Source: Actinomadura xylanilytica
GTDB lineage: Bacteria; Actinomycetota; Actinomycetes; Streptosporangiales; Streptosporangiaceae
Direction: 5' to 3'
Assembly (NCBI RefSeq): GCF_030283145.1
Contig: NZ_JASNWE010000001.1
Location: 804,690-868,689 of the forward strand
DNA: 64,000 bases
Shown: positions 4,007 through 57,165 of the stretch, one piece after another
Position numbering within the stretch: position 1 is the stretch's first letter
Layout of the letters: each line of letters starts with the position of its first letter
Notes under the pieces: generated by a model
Seen by the model: the letters and a program-made list of their open reading frames with translations, nothing else
What the model was told of the DNA's origin: nothing
Databases searched by the model: none
Made by a program: the position numbers and the translations under genes

Positions 4007-6205
4007 TCAAGGTTTCCGGGCCTTGCCGTCGCCCCCGCCGCCGTCCTCGGCGGCGTCATCAGCGATCTTCGCGCTCTGCCCGGTCTGCTCGGTCTGCTCG
4101 GTCTGCTCGGTCTGCCCAACCTTGGTCGGGCCGGCCTGCGTTTCCTCGGCGTCCTTGGCGGCCAGCTTGGCGAGCCGGGCGTTGTAGAGGGCCAGCTCGT
4201 CGTCCTCGGGACGTCCCCCGTCGCGCTCGGCCCGGTCGGCCTTGCGGTCCTCGCGCCGGGCCTGCCGCTGGTCGTCGAAGTACCACTGGAAGGCCAGCAC
4301 GAGCAGGACGATGAACGTGGGGATCTCACCGAACGCCCAGGCGATGGCGCCGCCGGTGTGCTGGTCCTTGATGATCGAGGTGCCCCACGGCGGGTCGACC
4401 GCGGTGTACCAGCCGCGGGCGAGCGGCTGCCCGAGGCTCATCAGCGCGATCCCGAAGAACGCGTGGAACGGCATGGTGACGAACAGCAGCAGGATCCGGC
4501 CCGGGTAGGGCAGCTTCCTGGGCGCCGGGTCGACCCCGACCAGCACCCAGAAGAACAGCGTGCCCGAGAGCAGGAAGTGCACCATCATCGCGATGTGCCC
4601 GAGATGGCTGCGCATCGACGCCTCGAACAGCGGCGTGAAGTACAGCGCGAACGTGCTCGCCACGAAGATGATCGTGGCCACCGCGGGGTGCGCGACCAGC
4701 GCGGTGAAGCGGCTGTGCAGCGCGGCGGTCAGCCACTCGCGCGGGCCCCGGTCGCCGCGCACCCGGGCGGGTTTGAACGCGCGCAGCGCCAGCGTCACCG
4801 GGGCGCCCAGCACCAGGAAGATCGGGGTCAGCATGGACAGCACCATGTGCTGCACCATGTGCACGCTGAACAGGATCGGCGCGTACCGGGCGGCGCCCGT
4901 CTCGGTCACGATCACGATGGTGGCCAGCCCGATGAACCAGGCGGCCGTGCGTCCCGCCGGCCAGGCGTGGCCGCGCCGCCGCAGCCGGACCACGCCCGCC
5001 ACGTAGAGCGCGGCGAGCACCGCGACCAGCACCGCGAAGAAGAAGTCGAACTGCCACAGCGTCGCCAGCCGGGCCGGGGTGAGCGCCGGCGGCAGGTCGT
5101 AGCCGATGAGCGCCTTGATCGGGCTCTCCTCGGTGGTGGGCGCGGGCGGCGCGGTGCGCGCCAGCGCCACCGCCAGGCCCATGGTGCCGGCCATGACCGC
5201 GACCTCGACACTCGCCAGCCGGGCGAACAGCCAGGACGCGCGCCGCCCCGGAGCGCCGGACGGGGCACCGGACGGCGCGCCACCGGACTCGGCGGCGGCG
5301 AGGGCGGGCACGGTGCGGCCCCGGTGCCACCAGCCGAACCAGCCCAGCGCCGCGAACGCGATGATCTTGCCGAGGGCGAGCCGGCCGTAGTCGGTGCCGA
5401 GCATCTCGGCCGGGTCGGGCAGCCGGGCGATCACGTTGACCAGCCCGCTGACGCCGACGGTGACGTAGCACCACAGCGCCATCCGGCTGAACCGCCCGGC
5501 CATCACCCCGAGGCCGGGCCGGCCGCGCAGCGCGTGCGCACCGACGATGGCGAGGCCGCCGACCCAGGGGGCGACCGCGGCGACGTGCAGGGCGACGCCG
5601 GTGACCGCGACCGAGTGGTTGGCCGCGGACGCGGAGTGCCCGGTGAGCGGCGCGGGCAGCAGCGCCACCCCGGCCATCGCCAGCAGCCCGAACGCGGCGG
5701 CGGGGGTGGTGGTGGTGCGGGCCAGCAGCGCGACGACGACGGTGAGCAGCACCACCAGCATCAGCGCGGTGCCCTGCGGGAGCTGGCCGACGTAGCTGCT
5801 CAGCTCGCTGCCGGTGAGCACCTCGCCGACCGGCTGGCCCAGCACGTCGGCGACGGTGAAGATCAGGGTGGCCGCGGCGGCGGCGGCCCAGGCGGCGGCC
5901 AGCCAGGACGCGGCCCGCAGGTAACCGATCGCGTCCGCCGACAGCCGGGGCGCGCCCCGGCCGCCCTCCAGCGGGAGCAGCGCCGCCGCGGCGAGCAGCG
6001 CGCCGACCGTCAGGGCGCCGCCGAGGTCCATCACCAGGCGGGACACCGGCAGTCCCCAGCGGGTGACCGCGCCGGCGTCGCTCAGCCCGGGGATGACCTG
6101 CTCGGCGACCGACCCGCCGAGGAGCAGGCCGGCCGCCAGGACCGCGATCGCCACGGCCGCGGCGACCGCCGCGGTCCGCAGGATGCGCAGGCCGGTCCTA
6201 CTCAC
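4007..6205 (-). CDS. Fusion of copper-resistance CopD and cytochrome c oxidase assembly CtaG domains
   Basis: A 732-residue polytopic membrane protein. The first half (about 1-330) matches the CopD copper-transport domain; the second (about 380-690) is a caa3-type CtaG assembly factor, with conserved His/Met-rich membrane segments such as VHMVQHMVLSMLTPIFL and HIAMMVHFLLSG. Such fusions are common in actinobacteria and are thought to move copper across the membrane and supply it to oxidase. The charged cytoplasmic tail carries a TEQ repeat (9-bp DNA repeat about 4080-4114). Its start overlaps the end of copC by 8 bp. Confidence 0.9.
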   Translation of the reverse strand: MSRTGLRILRTAAVAAAVAIAVLAAGLLLGGSVAEQVIPGLSDAGAVTRWGLPVSRLVMDLGGALTVGALLAAAALLPLEGGRGAPRLSADAIGYLRAASWLAAAWAAAAAATLIFTVADVLGQPVGEVLTGSELSSYVGQLPQGTALMLVVLLTVVVALLARTTTTPAAAFGLLAMAGVALLPAPLTGHSASAANHSVAVTGVALHVAAVAPWVGGLAIVGAHALRGRPGLGVMAGRFSRMALWCYVTVGVSGLVNVIARLPDPAEMLGTDYGRLALGKIIAFAALGWFGWWHRGRTVPALAAAESGGAPSGAPSGAPGRRASWLFARLASVEVAVMAGTMGLAVALARTAPPAPTTEESPIKALIGYDLPPALTPARLATLWQFDFFFAVLVAVLAALYVAGVVRLRRRGHAWPAGRTAAWFIGLATIVIVTETGAARYAPILFSVHMVQHMVLSMLTPIFLVLGAPVTLALRAFKPARVRGDRGPREWLTAALHSRFTALVAHPAVATIIFVASTFALYFTPLFEASMRSHLGHIAMMVHFLLSGTLFFWVLVGVDPAPRKLPYPGRILLLFVTMPFHAFFGIALMSLGQPLARGWYTAVDPPWGTSIIKDQHTGGAIAWAFGEIPTFIVLLVLAFQWYFDDQRQARREDRKADRAERDGGRPEDDELALYNARLAKLAAKDAEETQAGPTKVGQTEQTEQTEQTGQSAKIADDAAEDGGGGDGKARKP

Positions 6206-6836
6206 CGCTGCCGGCCGCCGGCCGCTGCCTGCGCTTGGCCCGGAGCACCAGCGCGCCGCCGATGCCGATGCCGATCAGCACCCCGCCGCCGATCATGATC
6301 CAGGTGACCATCCCCGACCCCGAGTCGTCGGTGGCCTTCGCGGGCTCCTGGTCGGCCTTGAGCGGCTGCTCGTCGGCGGTCGCGGCGGCGCCGGTCTGCT
6401 CGGCGGCGGCGACCCCGCCGGTCGTCGGCTCCTCGCCACCGCCGCCGCCCTCGCCCGCGGTGGCGGTGAACTTGAGGTCGGCCTTCTGGATCCGGTGCCC
6501 GTCCTCGCCCACCACCCCGTAGGCCACGGTGTAGGTGCCGGCGGGCAGCGCGGCGGACAGCTTCTGGGTGACCTTCGGGCCCTCGTGCTCGGCCTTGCCC
6601 TGCTGGAACGCCTTGCCCGCGGCGTCCTTGACCACCACCTCCGCGAAGCTGATCTTGTCGCTGAAGACCAGCTCGACCTCGGTGACCGAGGCGGCCGAGG
6701 CGTCCTTGCCGGGGGTGCTGCTCACCAGCCGGGTGTGCGCGAGCGCCGGCGTGGCCAGCGCCCCGCCGAACGCGACGACGAGGGCGGCGACGACGCCGAG
6801 GCGGCGCATCGGCGGAAGGGGCATGAAGGTCTTCAT
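6198..6836 (-). CDS. copC: CopC copper-binding protein, membrane-anchored
   Basis: A 212-residue exported protein. A signal peptide (about residues 1-33) ends at ALA, so the mature protein begins HTRLVSSTPG with the N-terminal His of the CopC copper site. The beta-sandwich CopC domain follows (to about residue 120), then a Gly/Glu/Thr linker and a C-terminal membrane helix (WIMIGGGVLIGIGIGGALVL) with a short basic tail. It is the first gene of a copper set with the overlapping CopD-CtaG fusion, and probably passes copper at the outer membrane face. Confidence 0.9.
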   Translation of the reverse strand: MKTFMPLPPMRRLGVVAALVVAFGGALATPALAHTRLVSSTPGKDASAASVTEVELVFSDKISFAEVVVKDAAGKAFQQGKAEHEGPKVTQKLSAALPAGTYTVAYGVVGEDGHRIQKADLKFTATAGEGGGGGEEPTTGGVAAAEQTGAAATADEQPLKADQEPAKATDDSGSGMVTWIMIGGGVLIGIGIGGALVLRAKRRQRPAAGSGE

Positions 6837-6925
6837 GGGAGGTGGATCTCCAGTCAGGGGTGGATGCCGCCCACTAGCCTACTGAGCCCCGCCCGTGCGG
6901 ACGCCCCGGGTGGATCGGCGGCCGT

Positions 6926-8620
6926 TCAGAGGGCCGTCAGGACGTGCGCGCGGCCGTGCGCCGCGAACTCGGCGCGCAGCTCCCCGGCCCGCGCGTGCGT
7001 CAGCGGCTCGTAGGCGAGGTCGCGGCCGGGCCGCCACCAGACCGGGTCGCCGGCCTCCCAGCGGGTGCGGCGCAGCGGGCGCTTGTCGACCTTGCCGGTC
7101 GCGGTCAGCGGCATCGCCCGGACGAGGCGGACGAAGCGGGGCGCCCACTTGGTGCCGAGATCGGGCTGGGCCGCCAGGAACGCCGCGAACGCCCCGGGGT
7201 CGAAGCCCCCCGTCCCGCCGGGGTCGCCGTGCAGTTCCAGGGCGGCCATGACCTGGTCGCCGGTGCGCGGATCGGGGACGGGGTAGACCGCGCACATCAC
7301 CACCGGCGCCCAGCGGGCCAGGATCCGCTCGACCGGGGCGGCGGCGAAGTTCTCGCTGTCGACCCGGAGCCGGTCGGCGCCGCGTCCGGCGAAGTAGAAG
7401 AAGCCGTCCTCGTCGCGGTAGCCGAGGTCGCCGCTCCAGTACTTGCCGTCGCGGACCCGCTCGGCGTCGGCGGCGGGGTCGTTGTAGTAGCCCTCGAACG
7501 CGGCGGCGACGTTCAGCCCGACGATCTCGCCGATGGCCTCGCCGGGGTTGGCGAGGCCGCCGGAGCCGTCGAAGCGCGCGCGGGCGCACTCGGCGCCGGT
7601 CTCCGGGTCGAGGACGGCGATCCGGATGTCGCGCTGCGGCACGCCGAGCGCGTCGGGCGGCGTCTCCGGGGTCTTCTGCATGGCGATCGCGCCCTCGCTG
7701 GACCCGTACCCCTCGATGATCCGGCAGCCGAACCGGGCGGCGAACCTGGTCATGTCCTGCGCGGACGCCTCGGTCCCGAACGCGGCCCGGAGGGTGTTGG
7801 CGGCGTCGCCGGGGTCCTCGGGGGTGGCCAGGATGTAGGCCAGGGCCCGTCCGACGTAGTTGAAGTAGGTCACGCCGTACCGGCGCACGTCGGGGAGGAA
7901 CCCGGACGCCGAGAACCTGCGGCGCAGCGCGACGGTCGCGCCCGCGTGGGCCGCCATCGCCAGGTTCGCCATGACCGCGTTGCCGTGGAACAGCGGCATC
8001 GCGGCGTAGGTGACCGAGTCGCGGGTGATGCCCATCTGCGCGGACCGTCCGGCGATGGACGCCAGGCGGCCCTGGCTGCACGCCACCGCCTTCGGCGTCC
8101 CGGTCGAGCCGGAGGTGAACAGCAGGAGCAGCCGGTCGTCCGCCCGCGGCTCGCGGCCCGGCCCGGCACCCACGCCCGCCTCCGGCTCCGGGACGGCGTG
8201 GAGCCGGTCGCGGTAGGCCGGGGAGTCCACCACGTGGACGCGTCCGGCGGGGAACGGCTCGGGGAACTCGGCCAGCAGCGGGACGTGCGCGGCGTCGGTG
8301 ATGATCAGGTCGCAGTCGGTGTGCCGGACGTCGGCGGCCAGCTCCGCCCCGCGCCGGGTCGGGTTGATCCCCACCACCGTGGCCCCCGCGAGCGCGGCGG
8401 CGCCGATCCAGTAGACGTACTCGGGGACGTTCTCCAGCAGCACCCCGACGTGGCGCGGCCGGCCCGCCGGCGCGGGGCACGCCCCGGCCAGCATCCGGGC
8501 GCGCGCCCGGGAGGCCGCCACCATCTGGGCCCAGGTGCGGGTCTCATCCTCGAACCGCAGCCCGGGGTGCTCGTCGTCGGTCCGTTCCAGCAGCACTCTC
8601 GCGAAGGTCTCGCTCGCCAC
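6926..8620 (-). CDS. Acyl-CoA synthetase (AMP-forming, FadD-like)
   Basis: A 564-residue adenylate-forming enzyme that activates a carboxylic acid (probably a fatty acid) with ATP and CoA. Motifs seen: LLLFTSGSTGTPKA (ATP/AMP loop, about residue 170), GYGSSEGA (A5), SGDLGYRDEDGFFYFAGR (A7/A8) and the C-terminal Lys in TATGKVDKRPL (A10). The start is a GTG without a clear ribosome site, so the mRNA may be leaderless or nearly so. A TetR-like palindrome lies 17 bp upstream. It stands alone between the copC and DUF5685 transcription units. Confidence 0.88.
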   Translation of the reverse strand: MASETFARVLLERTDDEHPGLRFEDETRTWAQMVAASRARARMLAGACPAPAGRPRHVGVLLENVPEYVYWIGAAALAGATVVGINPTRRGAELAADVRHTDCDLIITDAAHVPLLAEFPEPFPAGRVHVVDSPAYRDRLHAVPEPEAGVGAGPGREPRADDRLLLLFTSGSTGTPKAVACSQGRLASIAGRSAQMGITRDSVTYAAMPLFHGNAVMANLAMAAHAGATVALRRRFSASGFLPDVRRYGVTYFNYVGRALAYILATPEDPGDAANTLRAAFGTEASAQDMTRFAARFGCRIIEGYGSSEGAIAMQKTPETPPDALGVPQRDIRIAVLDPETGAECARARFDGSGGLANPGEAIGEIVGLNVAAAFEGYYNDPAADAERVRDGKYWSGDLGYRDEDGFFYFAGRGADRLRVDSENFAAAPVERILARWAPVVMCAVYPVPDPRTGDQVMAALELHGDPGGTGGFDPGAFAAFLAAQPDLGTKWAPRFVRLVRAMPLTATGKVDKRPLRRTRWEAGDPVWWRPGRDLAYEPLTHARAGELRAEFAAHGRAHVLTAL

Positions 8621-8659: not shown

Positions 8660-9973
8660 CTAGCAGTCGATGCAGCAGCAGCCACAGCATTCGCACCCGC
8701 AGCCGTCACATCCGCAGCCGTCACAGCCTGAGCAGCCTGAGCAGTCGGGGCAGTCGCAGCCGCCATCGCAGGCACGGCTGCACCAGCAGCGGTCCGAGCA
8801 GTCCTGGCCGTGGTGCTTGCTCCACTCCGGCTGGAAGACCCCGCACGTCATGCAGACCACGGTGCCGGTGAAGCACGGAAGCGGGAATCCCGGCCGCTGG
8901 CCGGAAGGCCCATGCCCGGAGCCCCCACCGCCCGGACCTCCCCAGCCGCCGCCTCCGCCGCCCCAGCCGCCATCGCCGCCGCCCCAGCCGCTTCCGTCGC
9001 CTCCGGGCGGCGGCTGCGCCCCCTGCTGGGGCTGCTGCGGGTAGGGCCCCTGCGGCGGGTACGGGCCCTGCTGGGGATACGGGCTGTGCTGCGGGTACTG
9101 GCCGGGCGGGGGGCCTCCCGGGTATCCGGCGAAGACGCGGTCGACCGAGCGGCGCACCTCGCGTCCGAGCAGCGCCCGGACGAGCGCCGGGCTCTCCAGC
9201 TCGAGGTCGGCGAGCGCGAGCCGCAGCCCGTGCAGCGCGTCGTCGCAGTGCCGGCGCGCCTCGGCCGGGCCGGTGCCGGTGGCCACGAGCGGGTTGAACG
9301 CGCCCGCCGCCAGGTCGGGCCGGACGTCCTCGACCGCGTCGATCAGGTGCGCGAGGCGGCCGAAGAAGCGGCCCGCCTCGGCCAGGGACTCGGCGTTGTG
9401 CTCCTTGCCCGCCAGCACCGCGGTGTGCGCGAACACCGCGGCGACCGCCGTCTCGGTCGGCTCGGTCAGCTCCAGCAGCCCGAGCCCGCCCGCCGCCTCC
9501 AGCGCGCCCTGCCGCGCGATCGCCGCGCGCAGCACGGCCGGGTCGAAGCCCACCGCCGCGCCCGTCCGGCCGCCGGCGGCGTCCCAGCGCCCGGCCATCC
9601 GCCCGGCCGCCGAGGCGACGAGCCGGCGCGCGTACGGGCCGTCGCCGTCGGCCACGTGGTCCCGCGTCTTGCCCGCCGCGAGCAGCAGGGACGTCGCGGC
9701 GGCGAGCTGGGCGCCCTCGGCGCGGGCCGTGACCACCTCGGCACCCTTCATCCCGCGCAGCGCGCAGCGCCCGGCCTTGCGGCGCGGCGACCGGTCCGGG
9801 CGCTGCGCCTCGACCAGGACCGACACCAGCAGCCCGTCGTAGTTGGTGACCAGCCGGGCCGCCTGCCCGTGCTCGTCGCGCAGCGTCAGGCACAGCCCGC
9901 ACAGGTGCGCCATCCAGTCCTTGAAGAGCGTCCCGCACAGGCCGTGCCGGCACGGCCTGACGACTCCGAACAC
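8660..9973 (-). CDS. DUF5685 family protein with a 22-cysteine C-terminal tail
   Basis: 437 residues in three parts. Residues 1-290 are an alpha-helical DUF5685 domain beginning with paired cysteines (CRHGLC and HLCGLC). Residues about 290-365 are a Tyr/Pro/Gln-rich then Gly/Trp-rich linker (repeats like YPQQGPYP and GGGWGG). The last 70 residues hold 22 cysteines in CxC, CxxC and CC patterns, ending CCIDC. No signal peptide is seen, so the tail is probably cytoplasmic and binds metal or an Fe-S centre. The family's function is unknown. It follows the XRE-TPR regulator by 10 bp and is probably co-transcribed with it. Confidence 0.85.
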   Translation of the reverse strand: MFGVVRPCRHGLCGTLFKDWMAHLCGLCLTLRDEHGQAARLVTNYDGLLVSVLVEAQRPDRSPRRKAGRCALRGMKGAEVVTARAEGAQLAAATSLLLAAGKTRDHVADGDGPYARRLVASAAGRMAGRWDAAGGRTGAAVGFDPAVLRAAIARQGALEAAGGLGLLELTEPTETAVAAVFAHTAVLAGKEHNAESLAEAGRFFGRLAHLIDAVEDVRPDLAAGAFNPLVATGTGPAEARRHCDDALHGLRLALADLELESPALVRALLGREVRRSVDRVFAGYPGGPPPGQYPQHSPYPQQGPYPPQGPYPQQPQQGAQPPPGGDGSGWGGGDGGWGGGGGGWGGPGGGGSGHGPSGQRPGFPLPCFTGTVVCMTCGVFQPEWSKHHGQDCSDRCWCSRACDGGCDCPDCSGCSGCDGCGCDGCGCECCGCCCIDC

Positions 9974-52490: not shown

Positions 52491-52517
52491 GATGGCTCCC
52501 GCGATTGGACTCGAACC
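52491..52517. repeat. attL, 27-bp copy of the tRNA-Asn 3' end
   Basis: Identical over 27 bp to 57088-57114 (begins GATGGCTCCCGCG, ends CTCGAACC), covering CCA, acceptor strand and T arm of tRNA-Asn. The rest of the tRNA is absent here, so this is the displaced copy made by integration. Confidence 0.92.
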
Positions 52518-52758: not shown

Positions 52759-53997
52759 CTAGGCCGACTCGGAGGCGAGCTGATCGACCTCCTCATCCTC
52801 TTTCGAAAGCCCCCTCGCCTCAAGTAGCTCATTGATGTGGGGATCCTCACAGATGACCGTCAAGAGAACAGCAGCCGCCGTCTCCCACGCGGTACGGCCC
52901 GCCTGAAGCTTGCCAGTCTCCGGATCGATGAGATTCCCAGCGAAGACGGTGTCTTCAGTCGTGATGTCAGCCGTCTTGGGGGTCCGGTCGAAGCTGACCT
53001 TGTCGAGCGCCCTTACGGCGTCCGTAATCGGGATCTTCAGACCAGTGTTTGCCTGATAGACCGCGAAGGCGATGGCGTACAGCACGCCAGCCGAGGTCAG
53101 ATAAGTGGCCTCACGCAGCTCGGGCGCCTTGATCTCGCCATCGACGATGTCAGCGAAGCGGACCAGCTCTCCGAGAGCAGTCCAGAATTCGATCAACTTC
53201 TCGCGAGCCCCGTCGGCATTACTATCGATCAAGCCCTCGAACTTGGCGTTGACCGCCTTGTCCATGGTGGCAGGGCTGCGGTAGCCATTTCCAACCAGGA
53301 GCAGTCCAGACACGTACCTCACCGTCTTGAACGAGAAGAGCTTTGATGAAAGCTTCCCGGGATTATCCTTGAAGTATTCGACCCGGTCGTTGAAGAGGGG
53401 CACGACCTCGAACAGCTCACTCAGCTCACGGTTGATGGGCTGCCGCCGGTCCATAGACTGGGCGAGCGAGGCCGTCGGCGTCTTGACATTACGCTGAAGG
53501 TCTGTGAAGTCCTGAGCGCGGCGCTTGGGGCTGTCCTCAATGACGATGATCATCGGTTGTCCAGACCGCGCGAGCCGATCCAGAACGGGGTCGTCGTCGT
53601 CACGAGTACTCACGATGTGCTCATGGGCACCGATACGGTGCTGTCCGTCACCGATGTCAAACTTCGCGCCGATGTCCACCGACAAGGTGCCGATCTTCGC
53701 AGCGTCACTTTCCGTCGTAACGCCAGGAAGCTCCGCAGGAGTGAAACTAGCTTCCTTCGAGGTCAGGTAAAGCACGGCCGCCCCGAGGACGAAGTGCTCC
53801 TCTTCGACGAGGTACTTGACGATTCCCTGTAGGTGCTTGGGGTCGCGCGGGCGGTTGCCGTGGACGCTCGTCTTCACAGGGTCCCAAGCTTCCGGCTTGG
53901 AGACCATCCGGACCAGGTCGACCGGGCTCATGGCAGTGACCAGCATCTGGCGGCCGCCCTGCTGGTAGCCGATCACGGGAATGTGGATCTTGGGCAT
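52759..53997 (-). CDS. DGQHR-domain protein (DndB-like)
   Basis: 412 residues. The family hallmark DGQHR is in FDIGDGQHRIGAHEHI (about residues 114-129). Other parts: IPVIGYQQGGRQMLVTAMSP at the start and VVPLFNDRVEYFKDNPGKLS in the middle. DGQHR proteins include DndB, the regulator of phosphorothioate DNA modification, and proteins in other restriction loci. No dndACDE genes are present here. ATG with GGAGGGG upstream. Lower GC than the flanks. Downstream of the SRA-nuclease gene on the same strand, now separated by an IS. Confidence 0.85.
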   Translation of the reverse strand: MPKIHIPVIGYQQGGRQMLVTAMSPVDLVRMVSKPEAWDPVKTSVHGNRPRDPKHLQGIVKYLVEEEHFVLGAAVLYLTSKEASFTPAELPGVTTESDAAKIGTLSVDIGAKFDIGDGQHRIGAHEHIVSTRDDDDPVLDRLARSGQPMIIVIEDSPKRRAQDFTDLQRNVKTPTASLAQSMDRRQPINRELSELFEVVPLFNDRVEYFKDNPGKLSSKLFSFKTVRYVSGLLLVGNGYRSPATMDKAVNAKFEGLIDSNADGAREKLIEFWTALGELVRFADIVDGEIKAPELREATYLTSAGVLYAIAFAVYQANTGLKIPITDAVRALDKVSFDRTPKTADITTEDTVFAGNLIDPETGKLQAGRTAWETAAAVLLTVICEDPHINELLEARGLSKEDEEVDQLASESA

Positions 53998-54334: not shown

Positions 54335-54338
54335 CTAG

Positions 54339-55346
54339 GAGCTGTTTCCTGGATCAACCTCGGAGCCAGATGATCAGGGTCGCGAAGGTGATCGTCCCGA
54401 GGTAGATGTAGGCGCGTTTGTCATACCTGGTGGCGACGGCACGGTGGTTCTTGAGCCTGTTGATCGCTCGTTCGACGACGTTGCGTTTCTTATACCGCTC
54501 GGCGTCGAAGCCGGTCGGGCGGCCTCCGGCCGAGCCGCGCCCACGCCGGTTGGCGCGCTGGTCACGGGGCTCGGGAATGGTGTGCGAGATTTTGCGTCGT
54601 CGCAGGTAGGAGCGGCTGGCGCGAGAACTGTACGCCTTGCCGGCGCTGAGGTAATCGGGCCGGGTCCGGGGCCGTCCCGGCCCGATACGGGGCACCGAGA
54701 TCCTCTCCATGACGGCCTGGAACCGGGGACTGTCACCATGCTGGCCAGGCGTCAGGACCAGCGACAGCGACCGGCAATGACCTTCGGCGGACAGGCGGAT
54801 CTTCGTAGTGAAACCGCCCCGGGAACGGCCTAGGCACTCGCCTGCGCCACCACCTCCGCCAGCCGGGCGGACAGGCCCACCAGCACCGGATCGCCCCACT
54901 TTGTCACGACCGGTCCCCCCTTTTCAGCAGGAACCGGCGGCGGAGGTTTCCTGGGCGCCCCAGCGGCGTGCTGATGCGCCCGTGCGGTCGTGGAGTCCAC
55001 CGACACCTCCCAGTCGATCCGGCCTGCGCCGTCCTGGGCCGCTTGGATCGCAGTCAGCAACCGCTGCCACGTGCCATCCGCCGACCAGCGGCGATGCCGC
55101 TTATAAACCGTCAACCACGACCCGAAACGCCCCGGAAGATCACGCCAGGGCACCCCCGTCCGCACCCGGAACAACACCCCGTTGATCACCAACCGATGAT
55201 CGACCCAACGACCCCCACGCGCCCCACCGGCCGACAGCAACGGCTCCAGCAGCTCCCACTCCGCATTCGTCAGATCTCCTCGACCACCCATACGACCAGC
55301 GTGAACGCAAGGACCTGATCAAATCAGCCGATCCGGGAAACAGCTC
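54339..55346 (-). mobile_element. IS5-family insertion sequence (about 1.0 kb)
   Basis: Ends are inverted repeats GAGCTGTTTCC-n-GGATC (one mismatch over 17 bp), flanked on both sides by CTAG (54335-54338 and 55347-55350), the YTAR-type target duplication of IS5/IS427-group elements. It contains one two-frame transposase gene on the minus strand and lies within the island cargo. Confidence 0.88.
54354..55291 (-). CDS. IS5/IS427-type transposase made by -1 frameshifting; one catalytic residue changed
   Basis: Two overlapping frames. Frame one (55291-54830) has the N-terminal domain (LTNAEWELLEPLL; GVPWRDLPGRFGSW) and the first DDE Asp (VSVDSTTARAHQHA). Frame two (to 54354) has LGRSRGGFTTKIRLSAEGHC and the Glu region KKRNVVERAINRLKNHRAVA. 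A canonical slippery heptamer A-AAG-GGG lies at 54923-54917 where the second frame opens, so a fusion by -1 shift is expected. The second catalytic Asp, normally in LADKAYxS, is Gly (LSAGKAYSS), so this copy is probably inactive. Confidence 0.82.
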
Positions 55347-55408
55347 CTAGCCCGCGACAGAGGTGTGGTCACTCAGTTGGTCACCCGCCAGGCAGCCCCG
55401 CTGACCGT

Positions 55409-56419
55409 TCACACCACCCCAGGAACACCCACGTACGTGGTTCCATCCCAGTACGCCAACCCGATGCCGACCGACTCCAGAAGGGCGCGGAGGTCCTCGT
55501 GCGGCACTGCGGGGAGGAGCACCACGCGCTTAGGGTTTTCGGGCTGGACATGTCGGCTGTAGTCCAGCAGCTGACCGATGGCCATCCGCACGTCTTCACG
55601 CTTGGTCGTGCCCTTGAGCTCGTACAGCACGTGACCTTGCACGTCATACAGGTCGGTCATCAGGATGCCTGTGAGTCCCTTGACCTTGATCTGGAAGCGC
55701 TTCAGCTCACGCCCCTGGCCTGCCATGAAGGCGATGAAGTCATCCGCAAGGTTCGCCTCTCGCCGCTCCGCGATCGTCTTGGGCCCGGCCGACCGCGAGC
55801 TCTTGGTCTTCTTGTTGGTCTCGGGCTCCACGATGGCACTGCTCGTGACGTCAGCGGGAACGGTGATCGCGCTCGTCTCCGGTGCGGGCGGGATGACGTC
55901 GTCCGGGAGGAGCTCGTATTCCTCTTTCGCCGGCCGCATCCGAAAGACGATCACGCGCCGCATCACGTGCTGCTTGTTCGGCGCCTCCCGCAGCACGTAC
56001 GGCTCGTACTTGTCGAGCTCAAACCGTCCCAAGTAGCGGTGACGCCGTGTCCCGGTACCGGGCACGTTGCCAACTGCCTTGAAGACCCTCAGAGTTCGCC
56101 CATCATCGACATGATGCAAGATCGCACGGTTACCGAAGCCGCTACGTCCCTCGAACGTCTGGTCACCCTCGCCATGACCTGTGTACTCCCACACGCGGCC
56201 GTGCTCGTCTTCTTCTTCCAGCCAGCCGTCGTAGTACCCGAATTGCTCGCCAACCAACGGGTCTGTGTAGATCACCACGTTCGGCTCGCTCGCCGACGGG
56301 CAGATCCCCCCTTGAGGACTCCCACCGAAGATCGGCATGATCTCGGCCCGCGTCTTGATCTCCCCCGGCAACACCTGCGCATCCACCATGCGCAGCACCC
56401 TAGCCAGCCCCAGCGACAC
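55409..56419 (-). CDS. Putative modification-dependent restriction nuclease: SRA-like domain plus PD-(D/E)XK
   Basis: 336 residues (GTG at 56419, or ATG at 56389). Residues about 15-165 resemble SRA/YDG base-reading domains: PIFGGSPQGGICPSASEPNV, FGYYDGWLEEEDEHG, WEYTGHGEGDQTFEGRSGFG, NRAILHHVDDGRTLRVFKAV. A charged linker (190-225) leads to a C-terminal nuclease core: Asp in MTDLYDVQGHVLYELKGTTK with the E-x-K in YELKG, then IGQLLDYSRH, the Q-x3-Y-type helix. Such proteins cut DNA with modified bases. Paired with DGQHR in an island. No recognised named family. Confidence 0.75.
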   Translation of the reverse strand: MSLGLARVLRMVDAQVLPGEIKTRAEIMPIFGGSPQGGICPSASEPNVVIYTDPLVGEQFGYYDGWLEEEDEHGRVWEYTGHGEGDQTFEGRSGFGNRAILHHVDDGRTLRVFKAVGNVPGTGTRRHRYLGRFELDKYEPYVLREAPNKQHVMRRVIVFRMRPAKEEYELLPDDVIPPAPETSAITVPADVTSSAIVEPETNKKTKSSRSAGPKTIAERREANLADDFIAFMAGQGRELKRFQIKVKGLTGILMTDLYDVQGHVLYELKGTTKREDVRMAIGQLLDYSRHVQPENPKRVVLLPAVPHEDLRALLESVGIGLAYWDGTTYVGVPGVV

Positions 56420-56699: not shown

Positions 56700-56995
56700 G
56701 CACCGCTCACGGTCGGATACACACCCGCCGGAAAGCGCATCGTGAGGAGGGCCAGCGACAGGACCAAGACTGGCGCGCTAGCAATGCTTAAAGAAGATGC
56801 GGGAGTACAAGGACGGGCTTCCACCGGAGGACGACAGCCACACCGTGGCCCAGGCCGTTGCCGACTGGCTCAATCGCGCTGTTGGTCGGGCACAGCGGCA
56901 CCCAGGTCACGGAGAAGGTGTACCGGCAGCAGATTCGGCCCGTGATCCAAGACGGCGCGCCGGCGATGGACCTGATCTTCCCGCACCCCAACTAG
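56700..56995 (+). pseudogene. Remnant of the island's tyrosine integrase
   Basis: N-terminal pieces in two frames: TVGYTPAGKRIVRRASDRTK and TGALAMLKE, then after a shift MREYKDGLPPEDDSHTVAQA VADWLN, typical of the arm-binding and SAM-like parts of actinomycete integrases. These join directly, in a third frame, to the C-terminus LLVGHSGTQVTEKVYRQQIR then PVIQDGAPAMDLIF, with the second catalytic His and the nucleophile Tyr. The core with the first Arg is deleted. It ends 92 bp before attR, the usual place for an integrase gene. Confidence 0.8.
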
Positions 56996-57087: not shown

Positions 57088-57114
57088 GATGGCTCCCGCG
57101 ATTGGACTCGAACC
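57088..57114. repeat. attR, 27-bp repeat inside the intact tRNA-Asn
   Basis: Same 27 bp as 52491-52517. It overlaps the 3' end of the tRNA-Asn gene through the T loop, so integration left the tRNA whole. Confidence 0.92.
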
Positions 57115-57165
57115 AATAACCTGCCGGTTAACAGCCGGCTGCTCTGCCGATTGAGCTACGCGGGA
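57090..57165 (-). tRNA. tRNA-Asn (GTT)
   Basis: Minus-strand cloverleaf: acceptor TCCCGCG/CGCGGGA, discriminator G, encoded CCA, D arm with AGCTCAATCGGCAGAGC, anticodon loop CTGTTAA (anticodon GTT), T arm ATTGG-TTCGAGT-CCAAT. It is the attachment gene of the island. Confidence 0.96.

Follow-up and report, generated by a model that had tools for sequence, protein, structure and literature searches.

Does a nuclease gene that shares a small genomic island with a gene for a DGQHR protein act together with that neighbour, or are the two genes carried side by side as separate cargo? The question is raised by a 64,000-nucleotide stretch of Actinomadura xylanilytica DNA (hereafter the window), in which a preliminary description, with domains called by eye, saw an SRA-like reader fused to a PD-(D/E)XK nuclease and proposed that this fusion and its DGQHR neighbour form a two-gene modification-dependent restriction unit. 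The reading favoured here, to which we assign a probability of roughly 0.7, is that the fusion is a solo type IV (modified-cytosine-dependent) restriction enzyme and that the DGQHR protein is independent co-cargo, not a required partner. The argument turns on the following features of the window.

55409-56419, minus strand: SRA + PD-(D/E)XK protein, 336 aa from GTG as listed; likely start ATG 56389
55901-56383, minus strand: SRA domain of that protein, residues ~13-173; candidate pocket Y62, D64, Y79
55412-55783, minus strand: PD-(D/E)XK nuclease domain of that protein, residues ~213-336; D256, E267, K269, Q283, Y287
52759-53997, minus strand: DGQHR/DndB-like protein, 412 aa; DGQHR motif at residues 117-121
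54335-55350, minus strand: IS4/IS5-family insertion, 1,016 bp; 21-bp terminal inverted repeats, transposase in two frames
56700-56992, plus strand: presumed tyrosine integrase remains, two pieces in different frames
57090-57165, minus strand: tRNA-Asn(GTT), integration site
57088-57114, minus strand: att copy at the tRNA-Asn 3' end, 27 bp
52491-52517, minus strand: second att copy, 27 bp, identical, at the far island end

The Nuclease Gene and Its Family

The reading frame is taken to be a real gene because its codon-position G+C (0.67/0.42/0.81) is of the coding type and because relatives, with identities of 32-74% over the best segment, are found in many genomes. The ATG at 56389 (residue 11) is the likelier start, since the close relative in locus L031 begins there and residues 1-12 of the structural model have a pLDDT below 50. 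Genome samples of 149, 394 and 392 were searched in all. Among the 149 related genomes, 16 gave a match to the window protein, the window's own genome included; 11 of these matches, again with the own genome among them, span most of the protein at E <= 2e-43, while four cover the nuclease half only and one a short N-terminal stretch. The genome_contigs collection yielded 93 relatives, and analysis covered the best 80; viral_contigs yielded nine with the alignment as query and none with the single nuclease protein.

Existing resources do not name the protein. It has no significant match in Pfam, NCBIfam or PADLOC; Pfam offers no SRA match at E <= 1 and, as its sole match, Tox-REase-9 (E 0.17), and phmmer against the PDB returned no match. 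The SRA part does match phrog_15103 (E 5e-18), a PHROG without assigned function. For the family alignment, 77 match stretches were tried and 73 were left after L075, L118 and L122 (not in one frame) and L084 (one stop) had been dropped. The aligned set of 65 consists of the window protein and 64 of these 73, nine having been omitted by eye as similar to others, and L056, L100, L103, L120, L123-L128, L130 and L139 lie outside it. The search patterns used on genome_contigs took in the GYYDGW and GQLLDYxR stretches, and the conservation of Y62, D64, Q283 and Y287 given below is therefore partly built in; D256, E267 and K269 lie outside those patterns, and one viral_contigs pattern included the TDLYD stretch with D256.

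The N-Terminal Half Is an SRA Domain

An AlphaFold2 model built on the 65 sequences has a mean pLDDT of 88.5 and a pTM of 0.81. Its residues ~13-172 align with the SRA domain of SUVH5 at Z 12.7 and rmsd 2.9 over 129 residues (VIA-align), and further SRA domains follow: ScoMcrA (Z 12.4), TagI (10.9), AspBHI (10.7), LpnPI (10.6) and UHRF2 (10.5). Homology to known SRA domains is detectable through the family profile, which in an hmmsearch of the PDB matched ScoMcrA alone (5zmn and 5zmm, E 5e-9 and 1e-8). SAD_SRA (PF02182) is matched at E<0.01 by nine of the 65 aligned members, the window protein not among them, and Tox-REase-9 by three (best 0.0016).

The aromatic/Asp/aromatic pocket is present as well. 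Y62 is kept in 64, D64 in 63 and Y79 in 64 of the 65 aligned members, and in most of them a Y-T-G-x-G follows the pocket residues; in the member from Gordonia phage Sidious, one alignment (A5) places G in the Y62 column and F in the Y79 column, an assignment that depends on the alignment. The SRA pocket of TagI is reported to consist of Tyr55, Asp58 and Tyr67, and a Tyr/Asp/Tyr trio is given for both TagI and UHRF1 (PMC6212794). Y62, D64 and Y79 resemble Y55, D58 and Y67 of TagI, as mapped by sequence pattern and not by superposed coordinates.

The C-Terminal Half Is a PD-(D/E)XK Nuclease

Among the PD-(D/E)XK folds matched by model residues ~181-336 are Can2 (Z 9.2), VC1899 (8.6), XisH (8.5), AF1548 (8.5) and a NucS-type nuclease (8.0), and the helices and strands of the model were likewise taken as evidence for the domain. 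Because these values are middling, the fold call leans on the residues too: D256, E267, K269, Q283 and Y287 are each present in all 65 aligned members, which puts an Asp and an ExK within the core fold, together with the Q-x3-Y. Both domain calls of the preliminary description, an SRA-like N-terminal half and a C-terminal nuclease with Asp...E-x-K and Q-x3-Y, are thus borne out. The same nuclease end also stands behind other front ends (L041-L044, L123, L124, L127 and L130), and when the non-SRA front ends of L041, L123, L124, L127 and L130 were compared with Pfam, the only match was a sub-cutoff one, to the RNase III-like PF14622 in L127 (E 2e-4).

In a Streptomyces-type plasmid clade (L048 7989-8882, L049 8007-8900, L050, L190 and L192-L194), E267, K269, Q283 and Y287 are lost in seven of seven aligned members and the SRA Asp, D64, is kept. 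By annotation, from an incomplete table, a DUF4007 gene adjoins the clade member in two of eight plasmids; the one in L048 is SspB-like in PADLOC, and in L049 a gene annotated as DpdA lies two further on. These proteins are possibly readers or decoys tied to DNA-modification genes.

The DGQHR Neighbour

The DGQHR protein, recognised in the preliminary description as DndB-like, matches PF14072 (E 2e-36, 126 bits against a cutoff of 29) and TIGR03187 (82 against 58.9 bits). It does not qualify as DndB proper: against the DndB equivalog TIGR03233 it scores 58.5 bits where 328 are needed, and no match to dndC was found in the genome that encodes it (96.8% complete, 13 contigs). The statement that dnd genes are absent was followed up with dndC and dndD; it stands for dndC, while dndD leaves a single match over model positions 3-56 that, at 34 against 246 bits, is far below cutoff.

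Relatives of the DGQHR protein were found in nine of 392 genomes of one genus (g45) at E <= 1e-12 and on one Rhodococcus plasmid (41%). The genus is probably Streptomyces, since locus L040, from its genome G110, is 82-85% identical in DNA to the Streptomyces loci L091 and L095. The closest relatives found, in G622, G773, G342 and G721, are 70-74% identical; the others are in G793 (44%), G493 (a fragment, 65% over 83 aa) and G110, G601 and G539 (33-34%). Scans of viral_contigs with the single DGQHR protein and with a DGQHR alignment were unproductive. Plasmids often carry DGQHR genes, with 292 records matched, 248 of them typed conjugative and most enterobacterial, and on one IncL/M plasmid (L156 5818-7101 and neighbours) the DGQHR gene has an antirestriction gene and ssb within ~6 kb.

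Nuclease and DGQHR Genes Are Rarely Neighbours

If the two genes did form a system, the NTP-binding, ParB-fold DGQHR protein would sense nucleotides or the state of the DNA and license or repress the SRA nuclease. Such a role would fit two genes on the same strand of one 4.6-kb island, whose divergent homologues are adjacent again in G110 (L040), and it has precedents of a kind: a DndB-like protein is reported to bind ATP and GTP (PMC12704722), DndB is described as binding the dnd promoter, with dnd transcripts up in its absence (PMC4507180), and one account considers NTPase, nuclease or effector roles of DndB open (PMC10853773). Against it stands the spacing in the window, where the genes are 1,411 bp apart and, even minus the 1,016-bp insertion sequence in the gap, ~395 bp remain.

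The distribution of the two families also counts against a joint system. Four seeds were run by tblastn against 89 scanned nuclease loci, the genome_contigs part being the best 80 of 93, and none (0 of 89) has a DGQHR homologue nearby; within these 89, L123-L125, L127, L128 and L130 match the nuclease half only and L126 and L116 miss much of the SRA part. ORFs in L062 and L091 carry DGQHR-like motifs and are not homologues by tblastn, and the plasmid and phage loci were checked by motif (L047-L050) or annotation (L190-L194) only. Among the relatives' loci L031-L040, one of ten, L040, holds a DGQHR gene. Conversely, the nuclease is found in the fetched stretch of one of ten DGQHR relatives, again G110 (the stretch was 6 kb for G793 and ran to the contig end for G539). 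A nuclease profile run against the nine genomes of genus g45 found the two genes adjacent in G110 and on different contigs in G773; G493 gave a match to the SRA half and G721 a weak one to the nuclease half. The close nuclease relatives in G001, G017, G028 and G029 (63-70% identical) gave no DGQHR match in the 149-genome search.

The adjacencies are therefore two, the window and G110, and they involve different subfamilies of both proteins, with both present but unlinked in one further genome. Two is more than zero, and this counts against the solo-enzyme reading, but there is no conserved pairing in the loci examined, and a conserved SRA-nuclease/DGQHR operon was rejected on the 0 of 89, the 1 of 10 and the unlinked genes of G773. 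The preliminary description had itself said that its two-gene proposal would fall if the two families did not co-occur in other genomes; with adjacency in one other genome, that outcome has nearly been reached. We consider a joint system very unlikely.

Shared carriage can explain the adjacency that is seen. In L040, both the nuclease gene and the DGQHR gene have on their upstream side a copy of a 237-bp repeat (86% identical) and on their downstream side a copy of a weaker 120-bp one (69-71%). The nuclease genes of L091, L095, L102 and L188 (G773) are likewise preceded by the 237-bp repeat, L102 having another copy 2.4 kb downstream, and so is the DGQHR gene of G622 (L165). The downstream flank of the G110 DGQHR gene matches those of the L095 nuclease (85% over 117 bp) and of the G539 DGQHR gene (77%). 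From these related flanks in AICE-like loci it appears that a single cargo site in a single element family may serve both genes, and occasional side-by-side carriage without joint function would then be predicted. The idea is weakened by L070, L071 and L120, where the 237-bp repeat lies kilobases from the nuclease, so that it is not confined to the surroundings of the two genes; none of the repeats seen in the window is of this kind.

The 237-bp repeat (L040 9069-9305 and 11292-11526; also L091, L095, L102, L070, L071, L165 and L188) is partly palindromic and is found in AICE-like elements, often but not always beside cargo genes. A transfer origin or a regulatory element is possible.

The Island and Its Mobile Relatives

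The island measures 4.6 kb, with a G+C content of 63.4% against 73.5% for the window, and a 27-bp direct repeat of the tRNA 3' end, 100% identical, bounds it at both ends, as in an integrative element. The integrase pieces resemble a 395-aa ORF beside tRNA-Asn in G044 (L186; 86% over 44 aa and 52% over 33 aa), which we take, by eye and from its motif, to be an integrase; their identity rests on this similarity because Pfam and PHROGs gave no match to the pieces. The transposase of the insertion sequence matches DUF4096 (2e-28) and DDE_Tnp_1 (3e-7) in Pfam. When the island's flanks are joined, the best of the listed matches that run across the joint is that of G021, at 76% identity, which is supportive of, and no more than supportive of, an unoccupied site there. 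The empty-site search took in 65 genomes, all matching through the tRNA, and among the matches listed none, apart from the window's own two flanks, covered the downstream flank well, and no listed genome matched the whole joint.

With its presumed integrase down to two out-of-frame pieces and an insertion sequence within its bounds, the island could be an immobile relic whose nuclease gene is no longer expressed or active. Loss of expression may follow from this decay and counts against the solo-enzyme reading, yet the frame is intact, its catalytic and pocket residues are conserved and its codon pattern is of the coding type, so that a dead gene seems decidedly unlikely.

Elsewhere the nuclease travels in comparable company. 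It is bracketed by a duplicated tRNA 3' end in five of 103 loci examined, where only tRNA-bearing loci can score: the window (Asn, 27 bp), L080 (Pro, 43 bp), L107 (Met, 48 bp), L114 (Met, 28 bp) and L120 (Arg, 41 bp). Portal and terminase genes adjoin it in L058, FtsK/SpoIIIE genes lie near it in the AICE-like loci L040 and L091, and gp63 of Gordonia phage Sidious is an SRA nuclease with its catalytic residues kept. Two N6/N4-type DNA methyltransferase genes come directly after gp63 in Sidious (L047 5989-8388).

These settings raise the question of whom the gene serves. It might work for the mobile element and not for the host, by excluding rival phages and plasmids or by attacking the recipient's modified DNA on entry. 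The nine viral_contigs loci, phage Sidious, the portal and terminase neighbours, the AICE-like loci and the tRNA-bound islands all fit service to the element, and HHPV4I is described as a virus-borne SRA nuclease (PMC10101028). The SauUSI-like type IV neighbours in Streptomyces genome contigs, described below, point the other way, to an ordinary host-defence setting. Service to the element is on the unlikely side as an account of its own, and it overlaps with the solo-enzyme reading; service to the element and service to the host overlap too.

Companions in Other Clades

Counts of companion genes are taken from tblastn because a home-made gene caller missed the nuclease ORF in 15 of 90 loci. 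The Streptomyces/Kitasatospora clade has a DUF6602 gene arranged tail-to-tail with that of the nuclease in 14 of 89 loci (L060, L061, L063-L071, L073, L079 and L120; ~9150-9970, with ~1686-2483 in L070 and ~3765-4559 in L073), and its L120 member matches CRISPR-associated PD-DExK (2e-29) and NucC-type (6.5e-22) models in PADLOC. A SauUSI-like type IV gene is near the nuclease in nine of 89 loci, seven times behind DUF6602 and twice (L072 and L119) without it; a tenth match, in L105, is weak, and the L065 member is mREase_IV in PADLOC. Judged by these matches, the DUF6602, SauUSI-like and SRA nuclease genes make up a conserved neighbourhood of predicted modification-dependent enzymes. Six Microbacterium loci have a NUDIX hydrolase gene next to that of the nuclease, on the same strand with a 4-base overlap in three (L077, L078 and L082, 8936-9337, plus strand) and on the opposite strand in L084, L085 and L090; the hydrolase could clean up modified nucleotides.

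Two single loci may be added. In L085 (Microbacterium), the nuclease has as neighbours genes for a GIY-YIG/Schlafen-type helicase and a MazG-like protein (5841-7939), and in a small tRNA-Met island of Micromonospora radicis (L114) the nuclease has beside it a gene (6162-6731) for a 189-aa protein that matches the PADLOC model 'cll' (E 4e-25).

A wider interpretation would make the mainly actinobacterial family of ~300-aa SRA-ExK proteins a portable defence module, with varied front ends (SRA, others and one that is RNase III-like), a cargo site in AICE-like elements, prophages and tRNA islands, and clade-specific companions (NucC-like DUF6602 with SauUSI-like genes, NUDIX and DGQHR), the window's DGQHR protein possibly being an NTP-gated switch among the last. 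We put this forward tentatively, as rather improbable in its entirety.

How the Enzyme Would Work

SRA domains bind flipped modified cytosine. On the solo-enzyme reading, the SRA domain of the window protein would flip a modified cytosine of foreign DNA, most likely 5mC or 5hmC, into the pocket lined by Y62, D64 and Y79, and the PD-D...ExK domain tethered to it, probably acting in a dimer or a higher oligomer, would then cut nearby. The gene would be cargo of tRNA-targeting integrative elements, AICE-like elements and prophages, with a presumed role in defence, and the DGQHR protein, predicted to be a ParB-fold, NTP- and DNA-binding member of the DndB family, would be a second, independent cargo of the island. 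A search of the own genome for C5 methyltransferases (PF00145) gave no match, with the control positive in 10 of 14 genomes. A host without 5mC of its own can keep such an enzyme, and this is what would be expected if 5mC were self-harmful; the absent match does not exclude other cytosine methylation.

An SRA domain is in itself no proof of cytosine reading, since the m6A-dependent activity of HHPV4I is reported not to be due to its SRA domain (PMC10101028). The SRA domain studied here might accordingly read another mark (a hypermodified phage base, glucosylated hmC, m6A or phosphorothioate) or only clamp DNA. Besides HHPV4I, such a role is favoured by the plasmid clade without nuclease site, which stands beside a DUF4007 gene (SspB-like in L048) in two of eight plasmids, and by the differing pocket columns of phage Sidious. 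The Tyr/Asp/Tyr pocket and the Y-T-G-x-G argue for cytosine by their resemblance to TagI and UHRF1, if specificity may be transferred in this way, and TagI is reported to take 5mC and 5hmC and was modelled to clash with glucosyl-hmC (PMC6212794); the missing PF00145 match in the host points in the same direction. For phosphorothioate in particular, a link entertained in the preliminary description, no sulfur-binding domain was found by Pfam, by the profile against the PDB or among the fold matches, and dndC was not detected, the last being absence of evidence; it was rejected as the mark read. Altogether a mark other than 5mC or 5hmC appears unlikely, and the solo modified-cytosine-dependent enzyme is retained as the best explanation.

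Should it hold, the small set of SRA-nuclease fusions would gain a family without a name in Pfam, NCBIfam or PADLOC, one with a canonical ExK core and a reader of the ScoMcrA type, whose occurrence in phages, AICE-like elements and tRNA islands links modification-dependent restriction with the competition among actinobacterial mobile elements. It also carries a caution, in that co-location inside a mobile island does not make a functional pair. A search of the open-licence PMC literature (titles and beginnings of abstracts) found no such SRA-ExK family named, which is weak evidence of absence. The SRA-nuclease fusion is of an ordinary principle, and a two-gene modification-dependent unit is unlikely.

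Comparison With Known Systems

ScoMcrA (Sco4631), a type IV enzyme with the order SBD-SRA-HNH that is reported to act on 5mC and 5hmC DNA (PMC7461809), is the sole sequence relative in the PDB, and the likeness extends over the SRA domain. Where ScoMcrA has an SBD and an HNH, the window protein has a C-terminal PD-(D/E)XK domain; SBD and HNH are not among its Pfam or fold matches (residues 10-173 and 181-336), and an unlisted match excludes nothing. TagI shares the SRA domain with a Tyr/Asp/Tyr pocket, and its cutter is an HNH. PvuRts1I and AbaSI also join an SRA to a PD-(D/E)XK domain (Z 7.5 and 7.7 on the SRA part) but are described in the opposite order, with the nuclease N-terminal and the SRA C-terminal (PMC12707154). 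The DGQHR neighbour has the domain and the motif of the DndB/DGQHR family (PF14072, TIGR03187) and yet falls far below the DndB equivalog cutoff.

The domain order of the window protein, an N-terminal SRA-like reader followed by a C-terminal nuclease, is that of the MspJI family (MspJI, LpnPI and AspBHI). The top Foldseek match is indeed MspJI (E 2.5e-6), over both domains and in the same order, at a TM of 0.27 and an rmsd near 20 because the domains sit differently. The family profile did not match MspJI in the PDB at E<=10, and whereas the catalytic site of MspJI is given as PD-QxK (PMC12707154), all 65 aligned members of the present family have D-x10-E-x-K, for which reason the window protein is not filed with the MspJI family. 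From sequence and model together, it is best read as an enzyme that probably combines the domain order of MspJI with an ExK core and a reader of the ScoMcrA type.
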